DNA of 44,318 bases, from the NCBI GenBank assembly GCA_024642005.1, contig JAHECA010000005.1:100349-144666 (forward strand), read 5' to 3'. The stretch's first letter is position 1. Each line of letters opens with the position of its first letter. The notes beneath the pieces were generated by a model. The model saw only the letters and a program-made list of their open reading frames with translations. It did not search any database and was not told where the DNA came from. This document shows positions 9,600-27,304 of this stretch, one piece after another. This DNA is from Robiginitalea sp. (GTDB lineage Bacteria; Bacteroidota; Bacteroidia; Flavobacteriales; Flavobacteriaceae). A program made the translations under genes and the position numbers.

Positions 9600-10210
9600 C
9601 ACTTAACTTTTACTGAAAACAATTCCTTTCCTTCCAGGACCCCGACAAGGTAATCATTTGGGGCTACCCGGCCAACCCCTGCCGGGGTGCCCGTAAAGAG
9701 GATATCCCCTTTTTTCAGGGTGAAGTATTTCGATACGTAACACAGCAGCTCGTCTACCTTCCACAACATGTGGGCGGTATCGCCCTGCTGGACCCATTCC
9801 CCATTTTTACGCAGTCCGAATTGCAGGGTTTCGGTTCCCGAAAAGCGATCTTTGGGAACCCACTGGCCAATTACGGCAGAACCGTCGAACCCTTTGGCCT
9901 TCTCCCAGGGCAGGCCCTTGTCTTTTAGCTGCTGCTGCAGGTCGCGGGCGGTGAAATCGATTCCGACCGAAAGGGCGTCGTAATAGGTATGCGCAAATTC
10001 AGGGGTGATGTGTTTTCCGACCTTGCAGATGCGCACCAGTAACTCCACCTCGTAGTGCACGTCTTGTGAAAAATCGGGGATGAAAAAATCCTGCTCGCGC
10101 GGCAAGATTGCCGAATCGGGCTTGATGAACAAAACGGGCGATTCGGGCCGCTGGTTGGCGAGCTCTTCGATGTGGGCGGCGTAGTTTCGGCCAACGCAGA
10201 GGAGTTTCAT
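9599..10210 (-). CDS. Fumarylacetoacetate hydrolase family protein
   Basis: A 203-aa protein consisting of the FAH C-terminal domain alone. It begins KLLCVGRNYAAHIEEL and contains KPDSAILPREQDF, the metal-binding acidic residues in HYEVELLV, GIDFTARDLQQQLK and a FTGTPAGVG segment. This compact form resembles the YcgM/FAHD1 group of acylpyruvases and oxaloacetate decarboxylases. Family members cleave C-C bonds in beta-keto acids using Mg2+, and the exact substrate cannot be read here. It lies 37 bp after the exonuclease gene and is translationally coupled to the Hpt gene. Confidence 0.92.
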   Translation of the reverse strand: MKLLCVGRNYAAHIEELANQRPESPVLFIKPDSAILPREQDFFIPDFSQDVHYEVELLVRICKVGKHITPEFAHTYYDALSVGIDFTARDLQQQLKDKGLPWEKAKGFDGSAVIGQWVPKDRFSGTETLQFGLRKNGEWVQQGDTAHMLWKVDELLCYVSKYFTLKKGDILFTGTPAGVGRVAPNDYLVGVLEGKELFSVKVK

Positions 10211-13230: not shown

Positions 13231-14706
13231 ATGAACGCATCGCACCTTCTGCTCCTGATAGGGGCCTATTTCTGCCTGTTGCTGCTCATTTCCTATTTCA
13301 CCGGCAAGTCTGACTCCAACGAAGATTTTTTCCAGGCCGGCAGGCAATCGCCCTGGTACCTGGTGGCTTTCGGGATGATCGGCGCCTCCCTCTCGGGGGT
13401 TACCTTTATTTCGGTACCGGGCTGGGTGGAAAGTTCTCAGTTCAGCTACATGCAGGTGGTCTTTGGCTACCTGGCGGGCTATATCGTGATTGCCCTGGTG
13501 CTGCTGCCCCTCTATTACCGCCTGGGGGTCACTTCCATCTACGAATACCTGGAACAGCGCTTTGGGTGGATGAGCTACAAGGTGGGGGCCCTCTCCTTTT
13601 TCATCTCGCGGGTGCTGGGCTCGGCCTTCCGCCTGTTTTTGGTGGCGATCGTCCTGCAGCAATTCGTCTTCGACGGCTGGGGGGTGCCCTTCGAACTCAC
13701 GGTGGTGCTTTCCATTGCCCTGATTTGGGTGTATACCTACCGGGGCGGGATCAAGACCATCGTCTGGACCGATACGCTCCAGACCCTCTTCATGCTTCTC
13801 GCCGTGGGCCTGAGCATTTATTTCATCAACCAGGCCCTGGGTTGGAACCTGTCTGAATTCCTGAGTTCGGAAGCCTTCGGAAAGTACAGCAAAATCTGGC
13901 ACCTCGATTCGCTGGCCGATAAAAACCACCTGCTCAAGTCGTTCCTGGGGGGCATGTTCATCACCATCTGTATGACGGGGCTCGACCAGGATATGATGCA
14001 GAAAAACCTCACCTGCCGCTCCCTGCGGGACGCCCAGAAAAACATGCTTTCTTTCAGCGTGGTGCTGGTTGTGGTGAACGTGGCCTTCCTGATGCTTGGG
14101 GCACTGCTCTTCATCTATGCCGATAGGTCTGGCATCGCCCTGCCCCTGATGGACGGCAGCCCGAAAGCCGACCTGCTCTTCCCGGAAATTGCCCTGAACA
14201 GCGGCCTGGGGCCCGCGGTGGGCATCACCTTCATGCTGGGCCTGATCGCAGCCGCCTACAGCAGCGCCGACAGTGCGCTAACAGCCCTCACCACCTCGTT
14301 CTGCGTCGATTTCCTGGGCATCAACAAACGGCGGGCCGAGACCCGCAAAAGGCTGCGCAAACGGGTGCACCTGGGCATGAGCGCCCTGTTGATTGTGGTC
14401 GTCATTGCCTTTAAATACATCCTCGACCGCAACGTGATCGACGGCCTGCTCACTGTGGCCACCTATACCTATGGGCCCCTGCTGGGCCTTTTTGCCTTCG
14501 GCATCCTGACGCCTTACCAGGTAAGGGACAAACTGGTCTGGGTGGTGGCCGTGGCTGTGGTGTTGCTGGTGGCGCTGCTCGCCAACCTGCCTGCCGAAAT
14601 GCTCGGGGGCTATGAAATCGGGTACGAATTGCTCCCGCTCAACGGCCTGCTCACCTTCCTGGGCCTGCTCCTGATACGGGTTAAGCGCAGCACCTCCCCT
14701 CAGTAA
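13231..14706 (+). CDS. Sodium:solute symporter (SSS family)
   Basis: Inner-membrane protein of 491 aa with about 13 hydrophobic segments and the LeuT-fold SSS signatures. These include the N-terminal SYFTGKSDSNEDFFQAGR, GASLSGVTFISVPGW, the TYRGGIKTIVWTDTLQ region and the Na2-site segment AAYSSADSALTALTTSFCVD. It takes up an unidentified solute together with Na+. The start is ATG 13231, since an upstream in-frame ATG at 13168 would add a non-membrane leader overlapping the probable promoter DNA. It overlaps the 3' end of the convergent CoA-binding gene by 7 bp. Confidence 0.93.
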   Translation: MNASHLLLLIGAYFCLLLLISYFTGKSDSNEDFFQAGRQSPWYLVAFGMIGASLSGVTFISVPGWVESSQFSYMQVVFGYLAGYIVIALVLLPLYYRLGVTSIYEYLEQRFGWMSYKVGALSFFISRVLGSAFRLFLVAIVLQQFVFDGWGVPFELTVVLSIALIWVYTYRGGIKTIVWTDTLQTLFMLLAVGLSIYFINQALGWNLSEFLSSEAFGKYSKIWHLDSLADKNHLLKSFLGGMFITICMTGLDQDMMQKNLTCRSLRDAQKNMLSFSVVLVVVNVAFLMLGALLFIYADRSGIALPLMDGSPKADLLFPEIALNSGLGPAVGITFMLGLIAAAYSSADSALTALTTSFCVDFLGINKRRAETRKRLRKRVHLGMSALLIVVVIAFKYILDRNVIDGLLTVATYTYGPLLGLFAFGILTPYQVRDKLVWVVAVAVVLLVALLANLPAEMLGGYEIGYELLPLNGLLTFLGLLLIRVKRSTSPQ

Positions 14707-15062
14707 GTGCCGATCGCCAGAAGCACCAGGGTACAGGCTTCGAGCACTTCGATGCCTTCGGCCTTCAGCAAGGCGTAGAATTCGGGGTTTTCGGTGCCCG
14801 GGTTAAAAATGACCCGCTCGGGTTTCAGCCTGAGGATTGCCTGGTAATAAGACCGCTGCAATTCCGGGCGCATGTAGAGGGTTACCGTGTGAACAGCTGT
14901 TTGGATAGCGTCCAAATTAGCAGTAATTTGAATGCCATACGACGTTCCCCCGGTCCGGCCGAAAGCAACCGTCTCTATCCCTTTTTCAGCGAGCCGCTTC
15001 AGGGCCAGGTTGCTGTAGCGGTTAGGCTTCAGGGAAGCGCCGAATACCAGGGTTTTTTTCAC
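14700..15062 (-). CDS. CoA-binding domain protein (YccU-like)
   Basis: A 120-aa Rossmann-fold protein of the CoA_binding_2 family. It has the N-terminal nucleotide loop VFGASLKPNRYSN, the segment FGRTGGTSYG, the conserved VIFNPGTENPE and a terminal EACTLVLLAIGTY. Proteins of this size bind CoA in the related CoA-ligase domain, but the cellular role of the stand-alone form is unknown. The 292 bp upstream holds a candidate small RNA on the opposite strand. Confidence 0.88.
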   Translation of the reverse strand: MKKTLVFGASLKPNRYSNLALKRLAEKGIETVAFGRTGGTSYGIQITANLDAIQTAVHTVTLYMRPELQRSYYQAILRLKPERVIFNPGTENPEFYALLKAEGIEVLEACTLVLLAIGTY

Positions 15063-15094: not shown

Positions 15095-15120
15095 TGTAAC
15101 GAAGACGAAGTTACTTCGTC
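15095..15120 (+). promoter_or_regulatory. ECF-type promoter of candidate small RNA A
   Basis: TGTAAC (15095-15100), a 16-bp spacer, CGTC (15117-15120) followed by TTTG. This is the same two-part signal found on both strands between the ECF sigma gene and the DUF6249 gene. It also overlaps an inverted repeat (AAGACGAAG-TTA-CTTCGTCTT, 15102-15122). Confidence 0.55.
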
Positions 15121-15126
15121 TTTGGA

Positions 15127-15240
15127 ATTATATAAGCTGTTCATCATTGGTAACGCTGTATTTTTATAGTTAATGGTTAGTGTTTAGTATAGCTTATCAA
15201 TGAAGGAACCCCGGCGTAAAGGCCGGGGTTCCTGCTTTTT
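15127..15240 (+). ncRNA. Candidate small RNA A, upstream of the outer-membrane barrel gene
   Basis: An orphan transcription unit on the plus strand. It has an ECF-like promoter at 15095-15120 and an intrinsic terminator with a 12-bp stem at 15204-15240, and no coding frame of note lies between them. The expected RNA is about 115 nt. Its terminator is a close relative of the one ending candidate RNA B on the far side of the barrel gene. It could instead act as an attenuated leader of the barrel gene, which starts 115 bp beyond the terminator. Promoter and terminator are seen in the sequence; existence of the RNA is inferred. Confidence 0.5.
15204..15240 (+). terminator. Orphan intrinsic terminator (end of small RNA A)
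   Basis: A perfect 12-bp stem, AGGAACCCCGGC (15204-15215) / GCCGGGGTTCCT (15222-15233), with a 6-nt loop, followed by a run of five T on the plus strand. The T-run is only on the plus side, so it does not serve the minus-strand CoA-binding gene, and there is no plus-strand gene in front of it. Confidence 0.85.
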
Positions 15241-15285
15241 GGGCACTTTTCAGGGTCGGCCCGAAATGTTAAAACAAACCTTCTT

Positions 15286-15311
15286 TGTAACGATACTCCC
15301 CCGGCATCGTC
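15286..15311 (+). promoter_or_regulatory. ECF-type promoter of the outer-membrane barrel gene
   Basis: TGTAAC (15286-15291), a 16-bp spacer, CGTC (15308-15311) followed by TAG, 43 bp before the ATG. It matches the paired promoters of the ECF sigma factor gene at 26.8 kb in both boxes. No TAnnTTTG housekeeping element is visible here. Confidence 0.55.
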
Positions 15312-15354
15312 TAGTTGGTACATCATCAATCAATCATCACTTAAACGAACAGTC

Positions 15355-17811
15355 ATGAAAAACCGCTTCGCAGCGCTGTTATGGCTTTGTGCTGCCTTTA
15401 TGGCACCGGCACATGCCCTGGAAAACCCCCGAACCGGCCTGGAATATGGTCAAATCTCCGGCAACGTAATCGATCAGAACCTGCAGCAACCCGTGGCATA
15501 TGCCTCGGTTGTGGTAAAATCTGCCTCCGACAACACCACCATTGATGGTGGCATTACCCGCGAAGACGGCACCTTCGAAATCGGCAAACTGCCCGACGGC
15601 CAGTTTATCCTGGAGGTGCAATACATCGGCTACAAAACCTACAGCAAAACCTTTGACATTTCGCGCGATGCCCGTTTGCTCAACCTGGGCACCATCGCCC
15701 TGGAAGAAGAGGCAACCGAGCTCAAAGGGGTCGAAGTGGTAGGCGAGCGTACCACAATCGAACAAAAGGTAGACCGAAAGGTGGTAAATGTCGGCAAAGA
15801 CCTTACCACGATGGGGCCCACGGCCTCCGACATTCTGAACAACATCCCCTCGGTTAGCGTAGACCAGCAAACCGGCGAACTCGCCCTTAGGGGGAACACC
15901 AATGTGCGGGTCATGGTAGACGGCAAGCTCTCGAATGTGCCGGTGGCACAACTCTTGCGGCAAATTCCGTCTACCTCCATCAAGTCGATTGAACTGATCA
16001 CCAACCCCTCTGCCAAATTCAATCCCGAAGGGATGAGCGGGATCATCAACATCGTCTTGCACAAAAACGCCAACATCGGTTTTAACGGGAACCTGAACAT
16101 GGGCCTGACCAAGGGAGAAGAAGCCAAGTTCAACAGTTCCCTCGACCTGAACTATCGCAACGGCAAGTTTAACGTGTACGGCAATGCCGGCACCAACATC
16201 GGCAAATACGTGAACGACGGGGTGATAAACCGCCTCGAAGAGCAGTCGCGCCAGCAATTTGACGTGCTTTCGAACAACAAGTCGTACCTCTACAAATTCG
16301 GCCTTGATTTTTACCTGGACGACTACAACACTTTTTCGGTATTTACCAACCAAAACCAGTTCGTGGGCGATTTCAGTGTCAGAACAGCGGTTGACTATGC
16401 CACGTCGCCCCAGCGCAACCTGGGCCAGGACATGCTGAGCGACCAGAACAACCATTCCCGGCAGTACAACTTTGACTACAAGCACCTGTTTGGCAAGGAA
16501 GGCCACAGCATTGAGCTGGAGGCCGACTACAACCGCTTCGATAATTCAGAAGCTGCCGACTATACGGTTACCGGCGCTTCGCCTTACCCCGATTTCAGCG
16601 ATTTTGTGGAAACAGAGCGCACCCAAACCACGGTGAACCTCGACTACGTTAACCCGCTCGACTCGCTTTCCAAGCTGGAATTGGGCTTGCAGGCCCGCCT
16701 TTTCGAAACCCTGACCGATTACAATTCCACCGGGTTCTCGTACAATGCCCAGGGCCAGCTGGTGGCCACCCCAAGTACGGCCTTCCGCTACGACACGGAT
16801 ATTTATTCGGCCTATGCCACCTACAGCCGCACCCTTGGGAAATGGTCAGTCCAGGCCGGCATCAGGGCCGAAACCGTGGAGGTGGCTGCCGACACCAACC
16901 AGGTGCGGTCATTTACGGACTCCTACTTTCAGTTGTACCCCTCTGCCTTTATAACTTATTCGCCAGGCGAGAAAGACCAGTTCCAGCTCAGCCTGAGCCG
17001 CAGGGTAGACCGCCCCGGCCTTTCGCAGGTAAACCCGATCAGGGAGTTTTCCACCCCGGTAATTTCGTCCTTCGGAAACCCGGCGCTGCTGCCCCAGTTT
17101 ACGCTCTCTTACGAGGCCAATTACACCCGTCGCTTCAAGCTGGGGAGTATAACGGCAGGGGCATTCTACCGCAGCATTTCAGACGAGATTAACCGGGCCC
17201 TTTACATCGACCGCCTCGACCTGAACCGCATTGTGCTCACCTACGACAACTTTGACGATACCGATGCCTTCGGGGTGGAGGTCTCGGCCAACCTCAAGCC
17301 CCTCACCTGGTGGAACGTGAATGCCAGCTTTGATCTGTACCAGCAGACCCAACGGGGTTTTACCGAAAGCCTGCCTCCCGGCCTGACCGATCCTACCGAA
17401 GACGATATCGTAACCGAGGCGCTATCGGTAAACAACATCATCTGGAACGTGCGTGTAAACAACAACCTGCAGGCCACCAAAAAACTCACCTTCCAGGTAT
17501 TCGGCATGTACCGCGGGCGGCAACAGACCCTGCAATTCACCCAGGAGCCCATGTACATGATCAACACCGGGGCCCGCTATGCCTTCGCCGACGGGAAAGG
17601 CACCCTGAGCCTGAACGTGAACGACGTGTTCGACTGGATGAGCTCCCGCATTTCAACGGAGTACCCCATCCCGCAAACGGCCGAGTTCCGGTGGGAAAAC
17701 CGCACGGTTTACCTGGGGCTTTCCTATCGATTCGGCAGCGGCAAAAACCGCGCCCTGTCGCGGAAAAGGCGCGACGACAATACCAAGGAGGGGGGCGGGG
17801 GAATCTTCTGA
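15355..17811 (+). CDS. TonB-dependent-receptor-like outer membrane beta-barrel protein
   Basis: An 818-aa outer-membrane protein. The signal peptide covers about residues 1-21. A CarboxypepD_reg-like domain follows at about 32-115 (GQISGNVIDQNLQQPVAYAS, FILEVQYIGYKTYS). Next is a plug-like segment (about 125-230: DILNNIPSVSVDQ, LRGNTNVRVMVDGK, GMSGIINIVLHKN), then a long barrel of alternating aromatic strands ending LGLSYRFGSG and a charged tail. This layout fits the flavobacterial outer membrane beta-barrel family (OMP_b-brl_3) rather than SusC; there is no SusD partner and no recognisable TonB box. Ligand unknown. It is preceded by an ECF-like promoter and flanked by two candidate small RNAs, which suggests envelope-stress or sigma-dependent control. 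Confidence 0.9.
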   Translation: MKNRFAALLWLCAAFMAPAHALENPRTGLEYGQISGNVIDQNLQQPVAYASVVVKSASDNTTIDGGITREDGTFEIGKLPDGQFILEVQYIGYKTYSKTFDISRDARLLNLGTIALEEEATELKGVEVVGERTTIEQKVDRKVVNVGKDLTTMGPTASDILNNIPSVSVDQQTGELALRGNTNVRVMVDGKLSNVPVAQLLRQIPSTSIKSIELITNPSAKFNPEGMSGIINIVLHKNANIGFNGNLNMGLTKGEEAKFNSSLDLNYRNGKFNVYGNAGTNIGKYVNDGVINRLEEQSRQQFDVLSNNKSYLYKFGLDFYLDDYNTFSVFTNQNQFVGDFSVRTAVDYATSPQRNLGQDMLSDQNNHSRQYNFDYKHLFGKEGHSIELEADYNRFDNSEAADYTVTGASPYPDFSDFVETERTQTTVNLDYVNPLDSLSKLELGLQARLFETLTDYNSTGFSYNAQGQLVATPSTAFRYDTDIYSAYATYSRTLGKWSVQAGIRAETVEVAADTNQVRSFTDSYFQLYPSAFITYSPGEKDQFQLSLSRRVDRPGLSQVNPIREFSTPVISSFGNPALLPQFTLSYEANYTRRFKLGSITAGAFYRSISDEINRALYIDRLDLNRIVLTYDNFDDTDAFGVEVSANLKPLTWWNVNASFDLYQQTQRGFTESLPPGLTDPTEDDIVTEALSVNNIIWNVRVNNNLQATKKLTFQVFGMYRGRQQTLQFTQEPMYMINTGARYAFADGKGTLSLNVNDVFDWMSSRISTEYPIPQTAEFRWENRTVYLGLSYRFGSGKNRALSRKRRDDNTKEGGGGIF

Positions 17812-17849
17812 CAGCCGGTGGGCTAAAGGTGTTAAAAACAACCCAACAG

Positions 17850-17875
17850 CGTAACATCTGGCCTGTAGCCACGTC
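17850..17875 (+). promoter_or_regulatory. ECF-type promoter of candidate small RNA B
   Basis: CGTAAC (17850-17855), a 16-bp spacer, CGTC (17872-17875) followed by TAT. It has the same GTAAC-N16-CGTC signature as the other sites, with C instead of T at the first base. It lies 38 bp after the barrel gene stop codon. Confidence 0.45.
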
Positions 17876-17881
17876 TATTGT

Positions 17882-18020
17882 AAAGAGTGCCGCCAGTATT
17901 GTACCGCAAGGGCCAATCGGGCACATCAACGAAAAAAGGCAAGCCTGGGAGGGGATTGGTTGGTTAACTCTCCTGGGCGCTGCCCTAAGAGGACCCCGGC
18001 CGCTGGCCGGGGTTCTTTAG
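17882..18020 (+). ncRNA. Candidate small RNA B, downstream of the outer-membrane barrel gene
   Basis: Non-coding stretch between the barrel gene and fabH, bounded by an ECF-like promoter and an intrinsic terminator. The expected RNA is about 140 nt and contains no ATG-initiated frame of note. The terminator core (ACCCCGGC / GCCGGGGTTC) matches that of candidate RNA A, and both carry a GGTTAG/GGTTGGTTA-like stretch before the stem. The two may be sibling RNAs. Alternatively the whole stretch is simply the 3' untranslated region of the barrel gene. Confidence 0.42.
17990..18020 (+). terminator. Intrinsic terminator downstream of the barrel gene / small RNA B
   Basis: The stem AGGACCCCGGCC (17990-18001) / GGCCGGGGTTCT (18005-18016) has one G-T pair and a 3-nt loop, followed on the plus strand by a T-rich TTTAGTTTT. 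It may also work weakly for the convergent fabH gene. Confidence 0.75.
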
Positions 18021-18047
18021 TTTTGCAGGGGAAATGCTGCAGGCAAC

Positions 18048-19055
18048 TTACCAGCGAATAATGGCGCTGCCCCAGGTAAAGCCGCTGCCGAAAGCCGCGA
18101 GAACCACCAGGTCGCCCTCGGCCACCTTGCCCTTTTCCCAGGCCTCGGTAAGGGCAATGGGGATGCTGGCCGCGGTGGTATTGCCATACTGCATGATGTT
18201 GTTGTAGACCTGTTCGTCGCTCAGGCCGAACTTTTGCTGGATGAACTGCGAAATGCGCAGGTTGGCCTGGTGCGGGATCAGCATGTCGATGTCGGTCGCC
18301 TTCAGCCCGTTGGCCTTGAGGCCCTCCATGATAACCTCGCTGAAGCGGACTACGGCGTTTTTGAAAACGAACTGCCCGTTCATGTACGGGTAATAGGAAG
18401 TGTCTTCGGGGTCGTTGTCGCGCAATATGTCGTTAACCCAGCGCTTGCCCATGCCCGGCGCCAGCAGCGACAATTCCTCGGCATGCTGGCCTTCGCTGTG
18501 CAGGTGGGTCGACAAGATGCCCCGGGTGGGGTCTTCTTCCCGGCTCAGGACGGCTGCCCCGGCCCCGTCTCCGAATATCACGGAAACACCCCGGCCGCGG
18601 GTAGTCATGTCGAGTCCTTTGGAATGGAGTTCTGAGCCAATGACCAGCACGTGCTTGTACATGCCTGTTTTGACATACTGGTCTGCCAGAGAGACCCCGT
18701 ACACGAAGCCCGAGCACTGGTTGCGGATATCGACTGCCCCCACGGTGCGCAAGCCCAGGTCGCGCTGCACCAGTACGCCCGGGCCTGGAAAATAGTAGTC
18801 GGGGCTCAGGGTGGCAAAAACCACGAAATCGATGTCCTCAGGCCCCAATCCGGCCCGCTCGATGGCCATTTGGGCCGCCCGAACACCCATGGAGGTGGTG
18901 GTGTCATGCGCCGGATCGGCATACCGGCGCTGCTCGATTCCGGTACGTTCGCGAATCCAGGCATCGTTGGTTTCCATGAGCTGGGATAGTTCATCGTTGG
19001 TAACTACCCGTTCGGGCACATAGAAGCCCAGCCCGCTTATCCTTGAATTGTACAT
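18048..19055 (-). CDS. fabH: 3-oxoacyl-ACP synthase III (beta-ketoacyl-ACP synthase III)
   Basis: Condensing enzyme of 335 aa that starts fatty acid synthesis from acyl-CoA and malonyl-ACP. The catalytic triad is complete: Cys114 in RNQCSGFVYG, His262 in IPHQANLRI and Asn292 in YGNTTAASIP. Other signatures are RTGIEQRRYA, GDGAGAAVLS and the C-terminal AAFGSGFTWGSAIIRW. The length matches the family. As a stand-alone copy away from fab genes or rpmF/plsX it could be one of several paralogues. The leader contains mutually exclusive GGGG/CCCC hairpins (19081-19100). Confidence 0.95.
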   Translation of the reverse strand: MYNSRISGLGFYVPERVVTNDELSQLMETNDAWIRERTGIEQRRYADPAHDTTTSMGVRAAQMAIERAGLGPEDIDFVVFATLSPDYYFPGPGVLVQRDLGLRTVGAVDIRNQCSGFVYGVSLADQYVKTGMYKHVLVIGSELHSKGLDMTTRGRGVSVIFGDGAGAAVLSREEDPTRGILSTHLHSEGQHAEELSLLAPGMGKRWVNDILRDNDPEDTSYYPYMNGQFVFKNAVVRFSEVIMEGLKANGLKATDIDMLIPHQANLRISQFIQQKFGLSDEQVYNNIMQYGNTTAASIPIALTEAWEKGKVAEGDLVVLAAFGSGFTWGSAIIRW

Positions 19056-19249
19056 ACTGTCGGCGTTTGGTTAAGGGATGCCCCTTTTGGGGTTCACCCC
19101 GTCTAAAATACCTATTAATGCGGTCCCCACCTAGTAATCGATCTTAAAAAAGGACCGGCCACTCCGGCGCCAGCTGGGCTTTTTCCGTCAAAAGTTTAGT
19201 ATCTTGAGGCCTCTGTTCAGTGGATAATTCTATCACCAAATTCGTACCC

Positions 19250-21697
19250 ATGAAAATTAGGTTATTGTTTTTGCTCGCCATGGCTTCCACCGCAGCCCTG
19301 GGCCAGTCTCAACTGGAGTACCAGACCCCTCCAGAGTCCATCATGGCATTGGCCGATGCGCCCCTGCCCCCCTCGGTATGGACCACAGACCACGGAGACC
19401 TTGTCTTGCTGTCGCGAAATGCCTACAAGAGTATTGCAGAACTATCCCAGCCCGAATTGCGCCTTGCCGGGTTGCGCATCAACCCGAAGACCAACATCGG
19501 CAGCCGGACCACGTTTTACAACGACCTGCAGGTCATAACAGCCGGGGAGCCGAACGCCCGGCAGGTCAGTGGCCTGCCCGGTGAGCCCTTGCTCGCTAAC
19601 TTCAGCCTTTCCCCAGACCAGCAGATGCTGGCCATGACTCATACCGCCGAGGCAGCGGTGGAACTCTGGGTGGTTGACCTGAAAAGGGCCGAAGCCCGCC
19701 GGGTATCGGCCGGGCCGCTGAATGCGAATATGGGCATGCCCTATACCTGGTTCAAGGACGGACAGGCCCTGTTGGTGAAAATGCTCCCACAAGACCGCAA
19801 GCCCCTGGCAGACCGCAGCGAGAACATCCCCAAGGGGCCCACCATTTCCACCAATGACGGAAAGAAGGCGCAAAACCGCACCTACCAGGACCTGATCAAA
19901 AATCCGGACGATGCCTTTAATTTTGAGCAACTGGGCCGCAGCGCCCTTTTCCGGGTAAGCCTCGACGGCAGCAGCAGCCCGTGGAAGGAAGCAGGGCTGT
20001 ACCGTAGCCTGCGCTTTTCCCCCGATGGGCGGTACCTGCTCGCGGTAACCGTGGAAAAACCCTTTTCGTACCTGGTGCCCTATTACCGTTTCCCCTCCAA
20101 AACGGCAGTTTTCACCAGCGAAGGCCGCCTGGTCAGCACGGTTTTGGAAGTGCCGCTGATCGAAGACCTGCCTCAGGGCTTTATGGCGGTGCGCCAGGGC
20201 ATGCGCGACCTGGACTGGCGCAATGACCGCCCGGCAAGCCTGGTTTATGCGGAGGCCCTGGACGGAGGCGACCCCGCCGTGGAGGCCGAATACCGCGATG
20301 CCGTTTACCAGCTGGAGGCCCCCTTCAAAGGGCCTGGCACCCTGCTGCTCAAGGTCAGGAACCGCATCGACGGGATTACCTGGGGCAACGACCAGGTAGC
20401 CGTGGCCACAGACAGTTGGTTCAATACGCGCAACACCCGCTCCTACCTTTTTGATCCTTCGGCCCCGGGCAAGGCTGCCCGCCTGCTTGCTGACCGGAAC
20501 TACCAGGATACCTACAGCGACCCCGGGAACTGGGCCATGGAGCGGAACGCATACGGGGAAGAGGTTCTGGCCCTCGACCGCAGGGGCAACGCCTACCTTT
20601 TGGGAGAGGGCTTTAGCCCGCAGGGGCAGTTCCCGTTTGTAGACCGGATAGACTTTAGCAGTCAGAAGAAGGAACGCATCTACAGCTCCCGCCTGGAAGG
20701 GCAAAAAGAAACCCTGATGGACTACGACCCTGCCGAAGACCGTTTGCTGGTGCGTATCGAGTCGCCTTCAGACTACCCCAACTATTTCGAAAAAAGCCTG
20801 GTGCGGCGCAAGGGAGCTGTACAGCTGACCTTTTTCGACAACCCCTACCAGGCCCTGGCCGGGGTACATAAGGAAGTGATTACCTACCCGCGGGAAGACG
20901 GCCTCGAACTGACCGGTACCCTGTACCTGCCCGAGGGGTACGACCCGGCCTCCGGGGAGAAACTGCCCATGATCCTATGGGCATACCCCCGGGAATTCAA
21001 AGACAAGAGCAGCGCTTCCCAGAATACCAGCAACCCCAATGAGTTCACCTACCCCTATTGGGGGTCTCCCGTCTTTTGGGTAACCCGCGGCTATGCCGTA
21101 CTCGACGACGCCGCCTTTCCCATAATCGGGGAGGGAGAAAGCGAGCCAAACGATTCTTTCCGGACCCAGTTGGTGGCCAATGCCAAAGCGGCCATAGACG
21201 CTGTTGACGCGATGGGAGTCATAGACCGCAGCCGCGTTGGGGTGGGCGGGCACAGTTACGGCGCCTTTATGGTAGCCAACCTGTTGTCGCATTCCGATCT
21301 GTTCGCTGCAGGCATTGCCCGCAGCGGGGCCTATAACCGCACGCTAACCCCTTTCGGGTTCCAGTCTGAAGAACGGAATTACTGGGAGGCCCCGGAGGTG
21401 TATTACACCATGTCCCCTTTTATGCATGCCGACAAAATGAAGACCCCCCTGCTGCTCATCCACGGGGAGGCTGACAACAATTCAGGCACCTACCCCATGC
21501 AGAGCGAACGGTATTTCAATGCGCTCAAGGGCCTTGGGGCCACTGTCAGGCTGGTCATGCTGCCCCAGGAAAGCCATGGCTACCGGGCACGGGAAAGCAT
21601 CCTGCACATGCTTTGGGAACAGGACCAATGGCTGGAGGCGTACCTGAAGCCGACTGCGCCCCAGCCGGAACTGGCTCAGCCGTTGGAAGACAGGTAA
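19250..21697 (+). CDS. Secreted S9 family peptidase (prolyl oligopeptidase-like)
   Basis: An 815-aa exported alpha/beta-hydrolase peptidase. The signal peptide MKIRLLFLLAMASTAALGQ is at the N-terminus. An extended beta-propeller-like region with repeated strand motifs comes next, then the catalytic domain with Ser669 in GGHSYGAFM, Asp742 in HGEADNNSG and His776 in ESHGYRARE. It is closest in style to the S9C/glutamyl-endopeptidase-like enzymes of Bacteroidota, and its cleavage specificity is not readable. The ATG at 19250 is chosen because it begins the signal peptide; a GTG at 19220 is in frame. Confidence 0.93.
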   Translation: MKIRLLFLLAMASTAALGQSQLEYQTPPESIMALADAPLPPSVWTTDHGDLVLLSRNAYKSIAELSQPELRLAGLRINPKTNIGSRTTFYNDLQVITAGEPNARQVSGLPGEPLLANFSLSPDQQMLAMTHTAEAAVELWVVDLKRAEARRVSAGPLNANMGMPYTWFKDGQALLVKMLPQDRKPLADRSENIPKGPTISTNDGKKAQNRTYQDLIKNPDDAFNFEQLGRSALFRVSLDGSSSPWKEAGLYRSLRFSPDGRYLLAVTVEKPFSYLVPYYRFPSKTAVFTSEGRLVSTVLEVPLIEDLPQGFMAVRQGMRDLDWRNDRPASLVYAEALDGGDPAVEAEYRDAVYQLEAPFKGPGTLLLKVRNRIDGITWGNDQVAVATDSWFNTRNTRSYLFDPSAPGKAARLLADRNYQDTYSDPGNWAMERNAYGEEVLALDRRGNAYLLGEGFSPQGQFPFVDRIDFSSQKKERIYSSRLEGQKETLMDYDPAEDRLLVRIESPSDYPNYFEKSLVRRKGAVQLTFFDNPYQALAGVHKEVITYPREDGLELTGTLYLPEGYDPASGEKLPMILWAYPREFKDKSSASQNTSNPNEFTYPYWGSPVFWVTRGYAVLDDAAFPIIGEGESEPNDSFRTQLVANAKAAIDAVDAMGVIDRSRVGVGGHSYGAFMVANLLSHSDLFAAGIARSGAYNRTLTPFGFQSEERNYWEAPEVYYTMSPFMHADKMKTPLLLIHGEADNNSGTYPMQSERYFNALKGLGATVRLVMLPQESHGYRARESILHMLWEQDQWLEAYLKPTAPQPELAQPLEDR

Positions 21698-21786
21698 TCG
21701 CAATTGGCCTATACTGGGGTGGTAATCTGACATTTGCAACCGATGGCCCCCAGAATGCAAGAAGCTTTTGCGGAAGTTCTGCTGAA

Positions 21787-21823
21787 TAAAAAAAAGCGCG
21801 CCACCCATGTTGGGTGGCGCGCT
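21787..21823 (-). terminator. Strong intrinsic terminator of orphan small RNA C
   Basis: A perfect 13-bp stem, AGCGCGCCACCCA (21795-21807) / TGGGTGGCGCGCT (21811-21823), with a 3-nt loop. The plus-strand A-run at 21788-21795 gives a long T-run on the minus strand only. The neighbouring protein genes are both on the plus strand, so it terminates no annotated gene. Confidence 0.88.
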
Positions 21824-21901
21824 CCTCAAACAACCTAACCAATTAATAATCCGATACGGATTTAAGAAAACTTCTTCATAGCATTTTAGAAGTCTTATCT
21901 G
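21787..21901 (-). ncRNA. Candidate small RNA C, between S9 peptidase and htpG
   Basis: Minus-strand unit of about 115 nt with a perfect housekeeping promoter 5' and a perfect 13-bp terminator 3'. The RNA would carry three consecutive tri-nucleotide-loop hairpins: AAGAA-GTT-TTCTT, ATCCG-TAT-CGGAT, and the terminator stem. The only coding potential is a 5-codon frame (MKKFS). It is not recognisable as SRP RNA, tmRNA, 6S or RNase P RNA. Divergent from htpG. Confidence 0.6.
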
Positions 21902-21905
21902 GTAT

Positions 21906-21937
21906 CAAATATAGTTTTGTTTAATTTATTTTCCAAA
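21906..21937 (-). promoter_or_regulatory. Housekeeping promoter of small RNA C
   Basis: On the minus strand, TTTG (21934-21937), a 20-bp spacer and TATATTTG (21906-21913). Both boxes and the spacing are identical in quality to the rpmB promoter. No protein-coding gene follows it on that strand. Confidence 0.72.
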
Positions 21938-21950
21938 TGTTTAAACATTT
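21935..21950. promoter_or_regulatory. 16-bp perfect palindrome overlapping the -33 box
   Basis: AAATGTTTAAACATTT is its own reverse complement and overlaps the -33 element of the RNA C promoter by three bases. It could be a dimeric regulator's operator. The surrounding DNA is A/T-rich, so chance is not excluded. Confidence 0.35.
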
Positions 21951-22002
21951 TTATTTGTTAATGTTTAGTGAAATAGCGACAATCCGTACCGGCAGGTGTC
22001 AG

Positions 22003-22033
22003 TTTGTCACCTTCTTCGCCCTTGGTATTTTTT
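22003..22033 (+). promoter_or_regulatory. Probable htpG promoter
   Basis: TTTG (22003-22006), a 19-bp spacer, then TATTTTTT (22026-22033), which matches TAnnTTTG except the last base. The start point would be near 22040, about 28 nt before the htpG ATG. Confidence 0.4.
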
Positions 22034-22067
22034 TTGAAGCAGTGCAGTCAGCAAAAAACAATAATCC

Positions 22068-23957
22068 ATGACAACAGGTAAAATCAATGTTTCTGTAGAC
22101 AACATCTTTCCGCTGATCAAAAAGTTCCTGTACAGCGACCACGAGATATTCCTCCGCGAATTGATCTCCAACGCCACAGACGCCACGCTGAAGCTGAAAC
22201 ACCTGGCTTCCATTGGAGAAGCCAAGATAGAGCTGGGCAACCCCCAGATCGAGGTTCGCATCGACAAGGCTGGCAAAAAGCTGCACATCACGGACCAGGG
22301 TATTGGGATGAGCGAGGAAGAGGTCAAGAAATACATCAACGAGGTGGCCTTTTCAGGCGCCGAGGAATTCCTCGACAAATACAAGGATGCCGGAAAGGAA
22401 GCCGGCATAATCGGCCATTTTGGCTTGGGCTTCTACAGCGCCTTTATGGTGGCCGGGAAGGTGGAAATCATCAGCAAAAGCTACCAGGAAGACACCCCTG
22501 CCGTACACTGGAGCTGCGACGGCACCCCCGAATTCACCATCAAGAAAGCCAAGAAAAAAGAGCGGGGCACCGAAATTATCCTGCACATCGCTGACGATTC
22601 CACCGAATTCCTGGAAGAGCAGCGCATTCGCGAACTGCTCCTGAAGTACAATAAATTCATGCCCGTGCCCATCAAATTCGGCACGCGCACCGAAACCCTG
22701 CCCAAGCCCGAAGGCGCACCTGAAGACGAGGCCGCGCCTACCCGCGAGGTAGACAACATCATCAACAACCCCAGCCCGGCCTGGACGCGCAAGCCCACCG
22801 AACTGGAAGATGCCGATTACAAGTCTTTTTACAGGGAACTCTACCCCATGCAGTTCGAAGAACCCCTGTTCCACATCCACCTGAATGTGGACTACCCCTT
22901 CAACCTGACCGGGATTTTGTATTTCCCCAGGCTCAGCAACGAGATCAACCTGCAGAAAGACCGGATCCAGCTTTACCAGAATCAGGTTTATGTAACCGAC
23001 AACGTGGAAGGTATCGTGCCGGAATTCCTGACCATGCTGCGCGGGGTAATCGATTCTCCCGATATTCCGCTTAACGTCTCCCGTTCCTACCTGCAGGCCG
23101 ACGGTTCCGTAAAGAAGATCTCTTCCTATATTACCAGGAAGGTGGCCGACAAGCTGCAGTCCCTCTTCAAGGAAGACCGGGCCGCATTCGAGCAGAAGTG
23201 GAACGACATCAAGATCGTGATCGAATACGGGATGCTTACCGACGAAAAGTTCTTCGAAAAGGCAGAAGGCTTTGCCCTCTACCCCACCGTAGACAAGGCG
23301 TACTACACCTTTGAGGAGTTTGCGGAAAAGGTTAAGCCGCTGCAGACCGACAAGGACGACAAGCTGGTCATTCTCTACGCTTCCGATACCGAGGCTCAGC
23401 ATGCCTATATTGAAGCGGCCAGGGCCAAAGGATACGAAGTACTGCTGATGGACAGCCCGATTGTGGCCCACCTGATGCAGAAGCTCGAGACATCAAAAGA
23501 AAAGGTGACCTTTGCCCGGGTAGATGCCGACAACCTCGACAAACTCATCGCCAAAGACGAGCCTCAGATTTCCAAGCTCTCCGAAACCGAGCAGGATACG
23601 CTCAAGCAGCAGATCGAAGGTGTCTTGGGTGAAAAAAGCGCCTATATGGTACAACTCGAAGCCATGGACAGCGAGGCAGCACCCTTTGTGATAACCGAAC
23701 CCGAATTCATGCGCCGCATGAAGGAAATGCAGCAGTCCGGGGGCGGCATGTTCGGGATGGGCAACATGCCCGACATGTACAACCTGGTGGTGAACACAAA
23801 CCACCCGCTGGTGGGTGAGATCCTGCAGACCAAAACCGACAAGAAAAGGCAGCGCCTCATTGAACAATCGCTCGACCTGGCCCGGCTTTCCAAGGGCCTG
23901 TTGAAAGGTGAAGCACTTACCCGCTTTATCAGCCGTAGTTTCGAGATGGTGAAATAA
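22068..23957 (+). CDS. htpG: Molecular chaperone HtpG (Hsp90)
   Basis: Bacterial Hsp90 of 629 aa. The GHKL ATPase domain comes first, with LISNATDATLKLK, ITDQGIGMSEEEV and the GHFGLGFYSAFMV lid segment. The middle domain follows (FPRLSNEINLQKDRIQLYQN and VSRSYLQADGSVKKIS, with the catalytic-loop Arg). The C-terminal dimerisation domain ends in LARLSKGLLKGEALTRF. The length is normal for the family. It carries an acidic, proline-rich insertion (KPEGAPEDEAAPTRE) between the N-terminal and middle domains. It ends in a terminator shared with the convergent GH13 gene. Confidence 0.97.
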   Translation: MTTGKINVSVDNIFPLIKKFLYSDHEIFLRELISNATDATLKLKHLASIGEAKIELGNPQIEVRIDKAGKKLHITDQGIGMSEEEVKKYINEVAFSGAEEFLDKYKDAGKEAGIIGHFGLGFYSAFMVAGKVEIISKSYQEDTPAVHWSCDGTPEFTIKKAKKKERGTEIILHIADDSTEFLEEQRIRELLLKYNKFMPVPIKFGTRTETLPKPEGAPEDEAAPTREVDNIINNPSPAWTRKPTELEDADYKSFYRELYPMQFEEPLFHIHLNVDYPFNLTGILYFPRLSNEINLQKDRIQLYQNQVYVTDNVEGIVPEFLTMLRGVIDSPDIPLNVSRSYLQADGSVKKISSYITRKVADKLQSLFKEDRAAFEQKWNDIKIVIEYGMLTDEKFFEKAEGFALYPTVDKAYYTFEEFAEKVKPLQTDKDDKLVILYASDTEAQHAYIEAARAKGYEVLLMDSPIVAHLMQKLETSKEKVTFARVDADNLDKLIAKDEPQISKLSETEQDTLKQQIEGVLGEKSAYMVQLEAMDSEAAPFVITEPEFMRRMKEMQQSGGGMFGMGNMPDMYNLVVNTNHPLVGEILQTKTDKKRQRLIEQSLDLARLSKGLLKGEALTRFISRSFEMVK

Positions 23958-23980
23958 GCCTTGTTTAACGCGTCAAAGAT

Positions 23981-24011
23981 AAAACCGCCCTCTTGCAGGG
24001 GCGGTTTTTTT
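23981..24011. terminator. Bidirectional terminator between htpG and the GH13 gene
   Basis: AAAACCGCCC (23981-23990) pairs with GGGCGGTTTT (23999-24008), continuing into a T-run on the plus strand and a shorter one on the minus strand. It sits between two convergent genes. Confidence 0.85.
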
Positions 24012-24021
24012 GTCTTCCCGA

Positions 24022-25746
24022 TTATTCCAGGCGGTAGATCACAGCCTGCCAGGGCTTCAGTCGCATAGTCCCGGCGGTCTGCGCAGGGTAATTGTCTATT
24101 AGCTGTTTCCCGACAACGATCGCAGCGGGGAGGGTTGGAACCACCTCCGCATCGCCGAAATTCAGCAGCACCAGCAGGCGGTCTTCCCCCAGGGTACGCG
24201 TATAGGCATATACCTGCGGGCTGCCGGCATCCACCAAATCATAAGCGCCATACACCAGCTCCAGGTGGTCTCTGCGGAGTTGGGTGAGCCTGCGGAAGTG
24301 ATTCAATACGGAGCCTTCGGTGCTGTCTTGCCGGGCCACGTTCAATTCCGTATGGTTGTCGTTTACGGGCAGCCAGGGGGTGCCTGATGTAAAACCTGCC
24401 CGGGGGGCCGCCGTCCATTGCATGGGGGTACGGCCGTTGTCGCGGGAAGAAAAATTCAGGCGTTTCATAAAGTCGTCCATATCGGCGCCTTCAGAGCGGG
24501 CTTTCTGATAGCTGTTCAGGGCGGCAATGTCGCGGTACTGCGATATGCTGTCAAAATCGATGTTGGTCATGCCCAGCTCATCACCGTAGTAGCAGTACGG
24601 GGTACCCCGCATACTCAGAATAAACGTGTTCAGCAGGCTGGCAGAAGCATTGCGAAAAGCAGGGTTGTCATTGCCCCAGCGGCTTACCATGCGCGCCTGG
24701 TCATGATTGGCCAGGAAGATCGAAAGCCAGCCGTCGTGCGCAAACTCGGCATCCCAACGGCCGAAGACGGCCTTCATGCTGTCGAGGGCATAGCCTTCGT
24801 ATTGCGGGATGTCGACCCCTTCAAAAGCATAGGCCATGTTGAGCTCGTGCCGGTCGGCGTCGACCAGGGCATGGGCATCTTCAAAATTGCGGCCGGCTCC
24901 TTCCGAGACGCTCATCACCTGGTACCGGCTCAGCACCTCCCGGTTCATTTCCTGCAGGTACTCGTGCAGGCCAGGCTGCATGGCGTAATACTGAATAAAA
25001 TCTTTCTCGTACCCGGCCGGGAAAGCGGGATAGGTGGTATCCTTGGCGGCAAACTGGAATGCGTCGAGTCGAAAGCCGTCTACACCCTTCTCGGCCCAGA
25101 AGCGCATGATGTCGTATACCTCCCTGCGCAGCTCGGGGTTTTCCCATTTCAGGTCGGGCTGCTGGAAGGAAAAATAGTGCAGGTAATAGGCATCGGTAAT
25201 CGAGTCGTATTTCCAGGCGTCGCCCGAAGGGTCGAACAGGCTGTACCGGTAGGGCGGTTTCCCCTTTTCCGCAGGCCACCAGTGGTAATAATCGCGGTAG
25301 GGGCTGGTACGGGAACTGCGCGAGGCCCGGAACCAGGGGTGCTGGTCGCTGCTGTGGTTCACCACAATATCCATGACCAGTTTGATGCCCCTTTGGTGCA
25401 TGCCTTCGAGCATGCGGTCAAAGTCGGCCATGGTGCCGAACTCTGCCATAATGGCCCGGTAATCGCTTACATCGTAACCGTTGTCGGCATTGGGAGACCC
25501 GTAGATGGGGTTGAGCCAGACCGCTGTAACCCCAAGGCTCTTTATGTAATCGAGTTCATCGATGATCCCCTTCAGGTCGCCTACCCCGTCCCCGTCGGTG
25601 TCTTTGAAACTGCGCGGGTAAAGCTGGTAGACGATGGCCTCCTTCCACCATGTGCGGTCGGGTTCCGGCGCCGTGTTGTCTTCAGTGGTCTGGTTGCAGG
25701 AAAGAAAGGCCAGGTAAAAGGCCAGGAGAGACGAAACGTTGCGCAT
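24022..25746 (-). CDS. GH13 alpha-glucosidase/amylase lipoprotein
   Basis: A 574-aa glycoside hydrolase of family 13 with a lipoprotein signal (AFLSC, Cys17). The (beta/alpha)8 barrel starts at WWKEAIVYQLYPRSFKD and has a calcium-type loop DTDGDGVGD. The catalytic residues are Asp228 in GFRLDAF, Glu282 in SVSEGAG and Asp349 in LANHDQ. The DVVNH-equivalent is DIVVNHSSDQHPWF. The YQIYPRSFxDxxGDGxGDLxG opening is typical of oligo-1,6-glucosidase/alpha-glucosidases, so short malto-oligosaccharides are the likely substrate. No SusC/SusD genes surround it. Confidence 0.94.
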   Translation of the reverse strand: MRNVSSLLAFYLAFLSCNQTTEDNTAPEPDRTWWKEAIVYQLYPRSFKDTDGDGVGDLKGIIDELDYIKSLGVTAVWLNPIYGSPNADNGYDVSDYRAIMAEFGTMADFDRMLEGMHQRGIKLVMDIVVNHSSDQHPWFRASRSSRTSPYRDYYHWWPAEKGKPPYRYSLFDPSGDAWKYDSITDAYYLHYFSFQQPDLKWENPELRREVYDIMRFWAEKGVDGFRLDAFQFAAKDTTYPAFPAGYEKDFIQYYAMQPGLHEYLQEMNREVLSRYQVMSVSEGAGRNFEDAHALVDADRHELNMAYAFEGVDIPQYEGYALDSMKAVFGRWDAEFAHDGWLSIFLANHDQARMVSRWGNDNPAFRNASASLLNTFILSMRGTPYCYYGDELGMTNIDFDSISQYRDIAALNSYQKARSEGADMDDFMKRLNFSSRDNGRTPMQWTAAPRAGFTSGTPWLPVNDNHTELNVARQDSTEGSVLNHFRRLTQLRRDHLELVYGAYDLVDAGSPQVYAYTRTLGEDRLLVLLNFGDAEVVPTLPAAIVVGKQLIDNYPAQTAGTMRLKPWQAVIYRLE

Positions 25747-25854
25747 GGGTAAGGGCTTGGTCAGGCAGGAAGGTACGAAATCCCGGGATTCGTCTGCCCC
25801 CCAATGGAAAATCAGGGTATCATGAGCCGGGGGCGGGTGCCAGTCCTGCCCGGC

Positions 25855-26256
25855 TTACAGAACCCAGTGCCGATCGATCCGCCGGCGCATCCATACCACC
25901 TGCAACAGCAGAAAGAGTGTCAGGGCCGATACGCCGTAGACCAGGGAAAGAGGCAAAGTTGGCAATTCCCAGGAGGGCAGCGACGCCTCTTCCATCCAGC
26001 CACCCCAGACGGACTCGGGCAAAAATCCTTGCCCCCCGCCGTTGCCGGCCATCCATCCCCAGCCGCACAGGGCGACTACGGTCACGGCGATGAGTGCCCA
26101 GGCCCAGCCGGGGATCAGGGGCGGTGCAGGTTCCCGGGTGGCTTCCAGCGCCTCAATGCGGTCCATCACCGCCCGTGAAAATCCCAGGGGTGCACGCTCG
26201 GTAGCGGCTTCTTTTAAGAACTGCCCAAGCGGCTCGGTTTTGTGCTTATCGTCCAT
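25855..26256 (-). CDS. Two-TM membrane protein, probable anti-sigma partner
   Basis: A 133-aa protein with an N-terminal cytoplasmic segment of about 48 residues (KHKTEPLGQFLKEAATERA...). A first membrane helix (about 50-68, WAWALIAVTVVALCGWGW) follows, then a W/P-rich loop and a second helix (about 103-121) ending in a basic RRRIDRH tail. Its start overlaps the end of the ECF sigma gene by 11 bp. Cytosolic head, membrane anchor and position immediately after the sigma gene are the usual marks of an anti-sigma factor. It has no zinc-finger (HxxxCxxC) motif and I recognise no named family, so the role is inferred from context. Confidence 0.75.
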   Translation of the reverse strand: MDDKHKTEPLGQFLKEAATERAPLGFSRAVMDRIEALEATREPAPPLIPGWAWALIAVTVVALCGWGWMAGNGGGQGFLPESVWGGWMEEASLPSWELPTLPLSLVYGVSALTLFLLLQVVWMRRRIDRHWVL

Positions 26257-26818
26257 ACGCTTCCAATAATTTGCCTTGCAGGCTTGTTGTCAAAACGGCC
26301 TTGAGCCGTTCGCGGGCCCGAAACAGGCGTACCTTTGCGGTGCCCGGGTTCAGACCCATTATTGCGGCTACCTCCTGCAGGCTTTGTTCCTGCAGATAAA
26401 ACAGGCTGAGCAGGGAACGGTCGGCCGGGTCGAGTCGCTCCAGGGCCTGGTCGAGCACCGATCGGCGCTCGCGTTCCATCAGCTGGCTCCAGGTATCGTC
26501 AAGGCTGCGGGCCGAGACCTGTTCCGGCGACAGTTCGGAACGCAATTCCGGTTTGCGGCCTTCCGCCCCTGCCGTATCCAGAATGCGGTTGTAGGCTATT
26601 TTATAGAGCCAGGTCGAAAACTTGGAGCTCCCCCTGAAGCCTTTCAGCCCCAGGTAGGCTTTTATGAATACATCCTGAGCGGTTTCCTCAGCCAACTCGC
26701 GGTTTCTAAGAAGGCGAACGGCCAGGGTAAACACCATATGCTGATACCGCTCTACCAGTCCCTGGTAGGCTGCAGTATCGCCGGCGAGCACCCGATCTAT
26801 CAGCTCCCTGTCGCTCAT
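26246..26818 (-). CDS. ECF RNA polymerase sigma factor
   Basis: Sigma-70 family ECF sigma factor of 190 aa from the chosen start. Region 2 covers about residues 13-83 (AEETAQDVFIKAYLGLKGFR, SSKFSTWLYKIAYNRILD), and region 4 about 125-175 (LSLFYLQEQSLQEVAAIMGL, GTAKVRLFRARERLK). Regions 1 and 3 are absent. ATGs at 26839, 26830 and 26818 are in frame. I prefer 26818 because an ECF-type promoter with its CGTC at 26842-26845 would place the transcript start near 26836. The gene is translationally coupled to the membrane protein gene downstream, and the promoter pattern suggests it activates its own transcription. Confidence 0.93.
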   Translation of the reverse strand: MSDRELIDRVLAGDTAAYQGLVERYQHMVFTLAVRLLRNRELAEETAQDVFIKAYLGLKGFRGSSKFSTWLYKIAYNRILDTAGAEGRKPELRSELSPEQVSARSLDDTWSQLMERERRSVLDQALERLDPADRSLLSLFYLQEQSLQEVAAIMGLNPGTAKVRLFRARERLKAVLTTSLQGKLLEAYGR

Positions 26819-26841
26819 GTGTTGGTTCATCTGTTCCATAA

Positions 26842-26868
26842 GACGGCCCAGGGCCGCCTGTGGTTACA
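26842..26868 (-). promoter_or_regulatory. ECF-type promoter of the sigma factor gene
   Basis: On the minus strand, TGTAACC (26862-26868), a 16-bp spacer, CGTC (26842-26845). It is the mirror image of the DUF6249 promoter at 26885-26911. AAC-type -35 and CGTC -10 boxes at this distance are characteristic of ECF promoters, for example the TGTAAC/CGWC pattern of Bacillus subtilis SigX. Confidence 0.65.
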
Positions 26869-26891
26869 AAATTTACGCATTTTGTGTAACC
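26862..26891. repeat. Inverted repeat joining the two divergent ECF -35 boxes
   Basis: GGTTACAAAAT (26862-26872) and ATTTTGTGTAACC (26879-26891) form an imperfect inverted repeat with a two-base insertion in the right arm. It carries one -35 box per strand. It may only reflect symmetric promoters, or also bind a regulator. Confidence 0.6.
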
Positions 26892-26911
26892 TGTTGCCGA
26901 AACACACCGTC
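26885..26911 (+). promoter_or_regulatory. ECF-type promoter of the DUF6249 gene
   Basis: TGTAACC (26885-26891), a 16-bp spacer, CGTC (26908-26911) followed by AGAT. Transcription would start near 26918, giving a leader of about 36 nt. It is identical in both boxes and spacing to the promoter of the sigma gene on the other strand. Confidence 0.65.
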
Positions 26912-26953: not shown

Positions 26954-27304
26954 ATGGGAGGAGAAATCGTAGTATTCATTGGTATGTTTTCCGTGGTATT
27001 CGGAATTGCCTATCTGTTCTATTCGACCCGGAACAAGGAAAGGCTTGCCCTGATCGAAAAAGGGGCCGATGCCAGCATCTTTATCAAAGGACGCCGGCAG
27101 GCCCAGCCTTTCTGGAAGATATTGATCCTGAACCTGGCCCTGCTGCTGATGGGCATCGGCGCCGGAGTGATGGTGGGCGGGGCCCTGCACGCCGCAGCCG
27201 GGGTCGAAGAAGGCATTGCCATGCCCGGCTCCATTTTCCTGCTGGCAGGTACGGGCCTGCTCATCGGGTTCTTCATCACCAAAAAGATGGACAAGGAGCT
27301 CTAG
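26954..27304 (+). CDS. DUF6249 small membrane protein
   Basis: A 116-aa protein with three hydrophobic helices: about residues 4-23 (VVFIGMFSVVFGIAYLFYS), 53-75 and 90-108. A conserved cytoplasmic stretch NKERLALIEKGADASIF lies after the first helix. This is the DUF6249 type common in Flavobacteriia, whose function is unknown. The frame is open far upstream, but that part is antisense to the sigma gene, and the ATG at 26954 starts the conserved MGGEIVVF. Divergent from the ECF sigma gene and sharing mirror-image ECF-type promoters, it is a likely member of that regulon. An intrinsic terminator follows. Confidence 0.85.
   Translation: MGGEIVVFIGMFSVVFGIAYLFYSTRNKERLALIEKGADASIFIKGRRQAQPFWKILILNLALLLMGIGAGVMVGGALHAAAGVEEGIAMPGSIFLLAGTGLLIGFFITKKMDKEL

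Follow-up and report, generated by a model that had tools for sequence, protein, structure and literature searches.

Two spacing classes of predicted ECF promoters and two conserved candidate small RNAs around an outer-membrane barrel gene in Robiginitalea

MicA and RybB are a pair of sigma-E-dependent small RNAs (sRNAs) that control outer-membrane proteins. Another such pair, FoxI and FoxJ of Fusobacterium, likewise depends on sigma-E and controls outer-membrane proteins, with a similar seed in both RNAs (PMC11005410). In Flavobacterium psychrophilum, a further study (PMC9723704) describes SM6, a set with an extracytoplasmic function (ECF)-type promoter (CGT box) that includes an ECF sigma/anti-sigma pair together with the sRNA Rfp11, which is putatively regulatory and has conserved counterparts in other species. 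Here we consider a stretch of 44,318 nucleotides from Robiginitalea sp. (assembly GCA_024642005.1, contig JAHECA010000005.1, positions 100,349 to 144,666; hereafter the window), in which predicted ECF promoters stand both at an ECF sigma factor gene (P0001) and around an outer-membrane barrel gene that is flanked by two candidate small RNAs, RNA A and RNA B. These promoters probably belong to two separate ECF systems, the barrel gene and its flanking, putatively trans-acting RNAs being part of a genome-wide set with a spacing of 16 bases that is most likely read by another sigma factor of the same genome, P0005.

An initial annotation of the window had proposed five promoters of the pattern GTAAC-N16/17-CGTC, all of them intergenic, and no copies inside genes. 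The five matches are indeed present, each within one base of where it had been placed:

15096-15120, plus strand: ECF promoter of the spacing-16 class for small RNA A, kept in relatives
15287-15311, plus strand: ECF promoter of the spacing-16 class for the barrel gene (pattern match, relatives)
17851-17875, plus strand: ECF promoter of the spacing-16 class before RNA B (pattern match)
26842-26867, minus strand: ECF self-promoter of the window sigma gene, class GTAACC with spacing 17, kept in relatives
26886-26911, plus strand: ECF promoter of the GTAACC spacing-17 class for the DUF6249 gene, kept in relatives

All five are intergenic, provided that 26821 or 26839 is the start of the sigma gene, and the number of sites is above chance (dinucleotide shuffles gave a mean of 0.28 per window and a maximum of 2, and 0/100 reached 6). 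The claim that genes hold no copies did not stand, as a sixth strict match (10039-10063, plus strand) lies within a gene on the minus strand (9599-10210). The distance between GTAAC and CGTC is 16 bases at the three barrel-gene sites and 17 at the two sigma-gene sites, while the base after GTAAC is G, G and A at the former and C at both of the latter. The pooled N16/17 pattern masks this difference: there are two promoter classes, not one regulon.

In the source genome as a whole (3.44 Mb, 78 contigs) the strict pattern occurs 50 times and a reversed-pattern control 112 times, and the pattern as such is therefore not in excess genome-wide. The two spacings are nevertheless distributed very differently, with 24/29 spacing-16 sites being intergenic versus 3/21 spacing-17 sites (Fisher p 1.8e-6), two of these three being the sigma/DUF6249 pair of the window, where intergenic sequence makes up ~7.6% (hand-checked gene list). 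Sites were classed with a purpose-written hexamer gene caller, of which one spurious open reading frame over the sigma/DUF6249 pair was corrected by hand; L041, although counted among the 24 intergenic spacing-16 sites, is situated in 2 kb of sequence without any called gene, so that its class is uninformative. In 19 of the 24, GTAAC is followed by A. Some further spacing-16 promoters stand before stretches without a large gene: one on the minus strand (L038, C40:22453-22477) is followed after ~110 bases by a terminator-like hairpin without a called gene and is a third candidate sigma-dependent RNA, two others on that strand precede small reading frames only (L010, C3:29440-29464, with a terminator-like hairpin at the end, and L009, C3:26381-26405), and one on the plus strand (L027, C26:29727-29751) precedes a frame for a hydrophobic peptide of 27 residues (by eye).

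The spacing-17 pair of the window belongs to its sigma gene and the divergent DUF6249 gene:

26246-26821, minus strand: window ECF sigma factor gene (P0001), its start picked downstream of its promoter
25855-26256, minus strand: candidate gene for a membrane anti-sigma factor, which overlaps the sigma gene and matches nothing in Pfam or NCBIfam
26954-27304, plus strand: DUF6249 membrane protein gene

Eight of the nine genus relatives have a P0001 match at 1e-40, the exception being G004, and a divergent GTAACC spacing-17 pair stands between the sigma gene and its neighbour in all nine genus genomes with P0001 (the source genome included), with spacer letters that vary. Among 30 family genomes, picked for carrying RNA A, the best P0001 match of each genome at 1e-30 shows GTAACC with spacing 17 in 19/19 cases and the divergent pair in 15/19; no strict site stands at nine P0001 matches weaker than 1e-30 in these genomes. 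Comparison with relatives upholds the ECF-type promoters, the self-promoter and the divergent DUF6249 gene, as well as the gene for a small membrane protein that follows the sigma gene and has orthologues in 16/26 loci tested. Against the NCBIfam model NF058625, P0001 scores 69 bits, below the cut-off of 130, which places it outside the GFO_1088/PG0214 family. Its relatives with 32-48% identity (L050-L129) are spread over several phyla, and the facing -35 boxes of the sigma/DUF6249 pair (window 26862-26891) form an inverted repeat with an AT-rich centre.

P0005, which is encoded on another contig, scores 235.7 bits against the same model and is a member of the GFO_1088/PG0214 family. A spacing-16 promoter stands before it, and this arrangement is well conserved: the gene is found in 10/10 genus genomes, with spacing 16 upstream in all ten, and in 30/30 of the chosen family genomes, with spacing 16 upstream in 29, spacing 17 occurring in neither set (overall 37/38 genomes with spacing 16, two genomes being common to both sets). 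In 37/38 loci it is followed by a gene whose small product shows, by eye, a single hydrophobic stretch; this protein has no Pfam or NCBIfam match and is placed as a membrane anti-sigma factor would be. The literature searches listed no link of this sigma family to small RNAs.

RNA A and RNA B are alike in build, each having a hairpin with a conserved GU-rich loop followed by a terminator. They were delimited as follows, together with the barrel gene and its syntenic neighbours:

15121-15240, plus strand: small RNA A as matched by covariance model R1 (fold z -7.0), with its real 5' end probably a few bases after CGTC
15144-15203, plus strand: covarying hairpin of RNA A
15168-15187, plus strand: conserved loop AGTTAATGGTTAGTGTTTAG of RNA A (alignment of loci)
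15204-15240, plus strand: intrinsic terminator of RNA A (fold, covariation)
17876-18024, plus strand: small RNA B (leader, hairpin, terminator)
17938-17984, plus strand: RNA B hairpin, its loop GGTTGGTT occupying 17958-17965
15355-17811, plus strand: outer-membrane barrel protein gene (OMP_b-brl_3, CarboxypepD_reg-like N-terminus)
14700-15062, minus strand: CoA_binding_2 gene, syntenic left neighbour of RNA A
18048-19055, minus strand: fabH, syntenic right neighbour

Orthologues of the barrel gene (at 1e-100) occur in 6/9 genus relatives, and all six have two spacing-16 promoters upstream of it with RNA A between them. A strict spacing-16 site precedes RNA A in all seven genus loci with the barrel gene; the genus genomes G002 and G003 were left out of the RNA A search. 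Model R1, which includes no promoter, matches 135/299 family genomes and 113/236 genera under strict filters. Fifty of these loci were read, namely the 30 best and 20 picked further down, of which 31 are A-type and 19 weaker. A strict spacing-16 site lies beside the RNA in 28/50, whereas a spacing-17 site does so in 0/50, and the background on the same strand elsewhere in these stretches amounts to 26 spacing-16 sites in 174 kb. In the structure of RNA A, 10/27 pairs are changed on both sides (0/500 shuffles as high). The loop word GTTAATGGTTAGTGTTTA is identical in 31/31 A-type loci and reads TTGATGGTTAGTGT in 17/19 of the weaker ones; in 10/19 of the latter the RNA lies directly behind the barrel gene. 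A possible micro-ORF (MVSV) in the loop was set aside; by eye, its third codon positions vary as little as the other two. At window 15102-15122, a short and perfect inverted repeat (AAGACGAAG/CTTCGTCTT) spans the -10 box of the RNA A promoter of this species; it was not seen by eye in the genus relatives compared.

RNA B at first looked unconserved, because six genus relatives lack a strict promoter at that place. Yet all seven genus loci have a hairpin with TTGGTTGGTT or GGGTTGGTT in its loop and a terminator behind the barrel stop codon, and over the 24 loci with a 3' flank read, 20 have a GTTGGT loop there. This loop lies 25-34 bases after the stop codon in 19/24 loci, compared to 146 bases in the window species, where the ECF promoter stands in between. 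The loop bases are 88% unpaired in predicted folds, and in stem and terminator 8/11 consensus pairs are changed on both sides (33 cells versus 13.2 in shuffles). Comparison with relatives supports the two conserved RNAs around the barrel gene, as initially proposed. Membership of RNA B in the R1 family was judged weak (13.6 bits in the window, mostly from the terminator); over the RNA B region R1 gives 8.9-24.1 bits in 7/7 genus loci, with second copies in other genera reaching 43.3 bits. Common descent of the two RNAs is possible. Such second copies, with loop GGTTGGTT or GTTGGTT, lie downstream of the first RNA in L158, L167, L177, L186, L187, L190 and L204, and in L187, L190 and L204 the barrel gene is followed by a tandem of at least two hairpin RNAs, of which the second has a GGTTGGTT loop.

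A number of these results weigh against the assignment of two conserved RNAs to a spacing-16 set read by P0005. No R1 match was found in 164/299 family genomes under the strict filters, and 22/50 RNA A loci have no strict promoter alongside. Before RNA B the strict site is present in the window species only (1/7 genus loci), the predicted folds of its hairpin exceed shuffles in stability by little (mean z -0.96 for 20 loci), and its further pair types are not above shuffles in one of five measures (57 of 500). As for the sigma factors, two further P0001 matches at 1e-30 (L256 and L257) have no strict site, and the genome has 13 ECF factor matches (that of the window included), of which others could share spacing 16.

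Judged by their features (an own promoter, a terminator, a conserved loop and survival without the neighbour), the RNAs likely act in trans. If so, it may be asked what their loops bind. For RNA B, the most suggestive partner is a word in the leader of the barrel gene:

15325-15335, plus strand: leader element ATCAATCAATC, complementary to the RNA B loop (2 G-U); found at 4 genomic places, each shortly before a gene

The predicted duplex has 11 pairs, 2 of them G-U. This 11-base word occurs at 4 places in the genome, all in gaps before genes (two of them short gaps behind another gene), while the reversed word occurs at none. Three places are 21-31 bases before a called start, i.e. of the barrel gene, of a DUF4870 protein gene and of a gene of 363 residues that sits downstream of another ECF sigma gene, and the barrel and DUF4870 copies come directly after spacing-16 promoters; the fourth is 111 bases upstream of the start called for a PadR gene, which is followed by a PspC gene, with a frame of 21 codons in between (by eye). 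This distribution is suggestive of pairing with RNA B. The three places of the leader word TCATCAATCAATCA outside the barrel gene are L272 (C36:6766, before DUF4870), L274 (C48:94980, before the gene of 363 residues) and L275 (C73:25695, upstream of the PadR/PspC pair). Over 20 loci, RNA B loops and barrel leaders share 7-16 contiguous predicted pairs, and the mean longest helix of 10.2 is above all 200 base shuffles.

The remaining pairing tests count, like the points above, against such a role. Cognate RNA B loops and leaders are not preferred over swapped ones (p 0.45), reversed leaders pair as well, the energies lie within the range of base shuffles, and among 207 leaders of the source genome that of the barrel gene ranks 22nd by energy, although tied second by longest helix; cognate covariation of loop and leader was sought and not found. 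For RNA A, the loop shows no pairing signal with the leader downstream of the next spacing-16 site of the GTAACA type (mean z -0.2 in 29 loci, which include some that have no barrel gene and do not include the window locus), and the barrel leader of the source genome ranks 206th of 207. A DUF4249 leader with 11 complementary bases was dropped as a target of RNA A, as the match is not conserved in two relatives with the gene. It is conceivable, albeit rather unlikely, that the loops bind a protein instead (e.g. a conserved RNA-binding regulator), which RNA A and RNA B would titrate. Such a role would fit the conserved loops in their hairpin frame and the lack of a conserved loop-leader pairing, as well as the fact that the 18-base complement of the RNA A loop has only two other places in the genome with at most 3 mismatches, as many as the reversed control. 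On the other hand, the confinement of the word complementary to the RNA B loop to gaps before genes argues for messenger RNAs as partners.

Even less probable is that neither RNA acts in trans, with RNA A serving the barrel gene as 5' leader or attenuator and RNA B as nothing but a terminator. The RNAs do stand directly before and after this gene, and RNA B lies in its 3' untranslated region (3' UTR), in six genus relatives without a strict promoter of its own. However, RNA A has its own promoter and terminator, with a separate promoter for the barrel gene behind it, and the gene follows in only 14/31 A-type loci. In the other 17 it was not found within the flank, and there the CoA-binding gene precedes the RNA in 15 and fabH follows it in 16, with the strict promoter kept in 9. 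The leader explanation for RNA A was rejected because RNA A is found where fabH follows directly; moreover, the loops of both RNAs are kept while their stems change, which a plain terminator would not need. The least probable alternative, which the spacing classes led us to reject and which was the reading of the initial annotation, is one regulon of the window sigma factor with flexible spacing, since, despite the GTAAC and CGTC common to all five sites and the closeness of sigma gene and RNA locus on one contig (in several relatives too), the own promoters of the two sigma genes differ consistently in spacing and next base, G004 keeps both spacing-16 sites (RNA A and barrel) without a P0001 match at 1e-40, and the RNA A site is kept in 8/11 family genomes without a close P0001 match versus 12/19 with one.

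Under the preferred explanation of two ECF systems, the window sigma gene, its membrane partner and the divergent DUF6249 gene would form a local unit that controls itself through GTAACC-N16-CGTC (spacing 17 from GTAAC), while the barrel gene and the two RNAs would belong to about two dozen promoters across the genome, mostly GTAACA with spacing 16. We infer that the latter are transcribed with P0005, which itself stands behind a promoter of this class. RNA A and RNA B would then act in trans as the RNA arm of an envelope response, their loops pairing with, and putatively repressing, messenger leaders; RNA B, whether read from the 3' end of the barrel messenger or from a promoter of its own, may exert feedback on the leader of the barrel gene and on a few others with ATCAATCAATC. 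A more far-reaching version, which we put forward as a tentative possibility, is that this is an old RNA arm of the ECF envelope response in Flavobacteriaceae: tandem hairpin RNAs with loops UURAUGGUUAGUGU (A) and GGUUGGUU (B), kept in one place between the CoA-binding gene and fabH, where the barrel gene would be a dispensable passenger, RNA B would bind leaders marked by AUCAAUCAAUC, and genomes without the barrel gene would keep the RNAs as free regulators. For tests in laboratory flavobacteria, a family-wide pair of RNAs provides a defined RNA family and a defined promoter class together with a candidate sigma factor, and the distinction made here separates two ECF promoter codes that are one base of spacing apart.

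With regard to known RNAs, Rfam gave 0 matches at gathering score in the window (the best sub-threshold hit, 30 bits versus 114, is a minus-strand one that covers the RNA A terminator), and a 14-base piece of the RNA A loop had no match in the paper text searched. As in 3'-UTR-derived sRNAs, RNA B lies behind a stop codon and ends in a terminator, but in the window it comes 146 bases after the stop with an ECF promoter in between, and its release from the messenger is putative. Literature searches on ECF-driven sRNAs in Bacteroidota gave nothing closer than SM6/Rfp11, which may be the same system as the spacing-16 set, in which case the novelty would be lower. Both sets list an ABC-transporter ATPase, a likeness by description only, whereas SM6 lists genes of the type IX secretion system (PMC9723704), none of which was recognised among the Pfam matches in the spacing-16 set. 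The nearest functional parallel found is FoxI/FoxJ. As with that pair and MicA/RybB, there are two short RNAs with a predicted ECF-type promoter that are tied to an outer-membrane protein gene; unlike those pairs, the present RNAs are from another phylum and have other sequences, they flank the barrel gene, they carry the loop in a hairpin, their sigma factor is likely of another ECF family and their messenger targets are only putative. In Proteobacteria and Fusobacteria, outer-membrane proteins are known to be restrained by small RNAs under ECF control, and a family-wide pair in Bacteroidota would carry this principle to another phylum with unrelated sequences.

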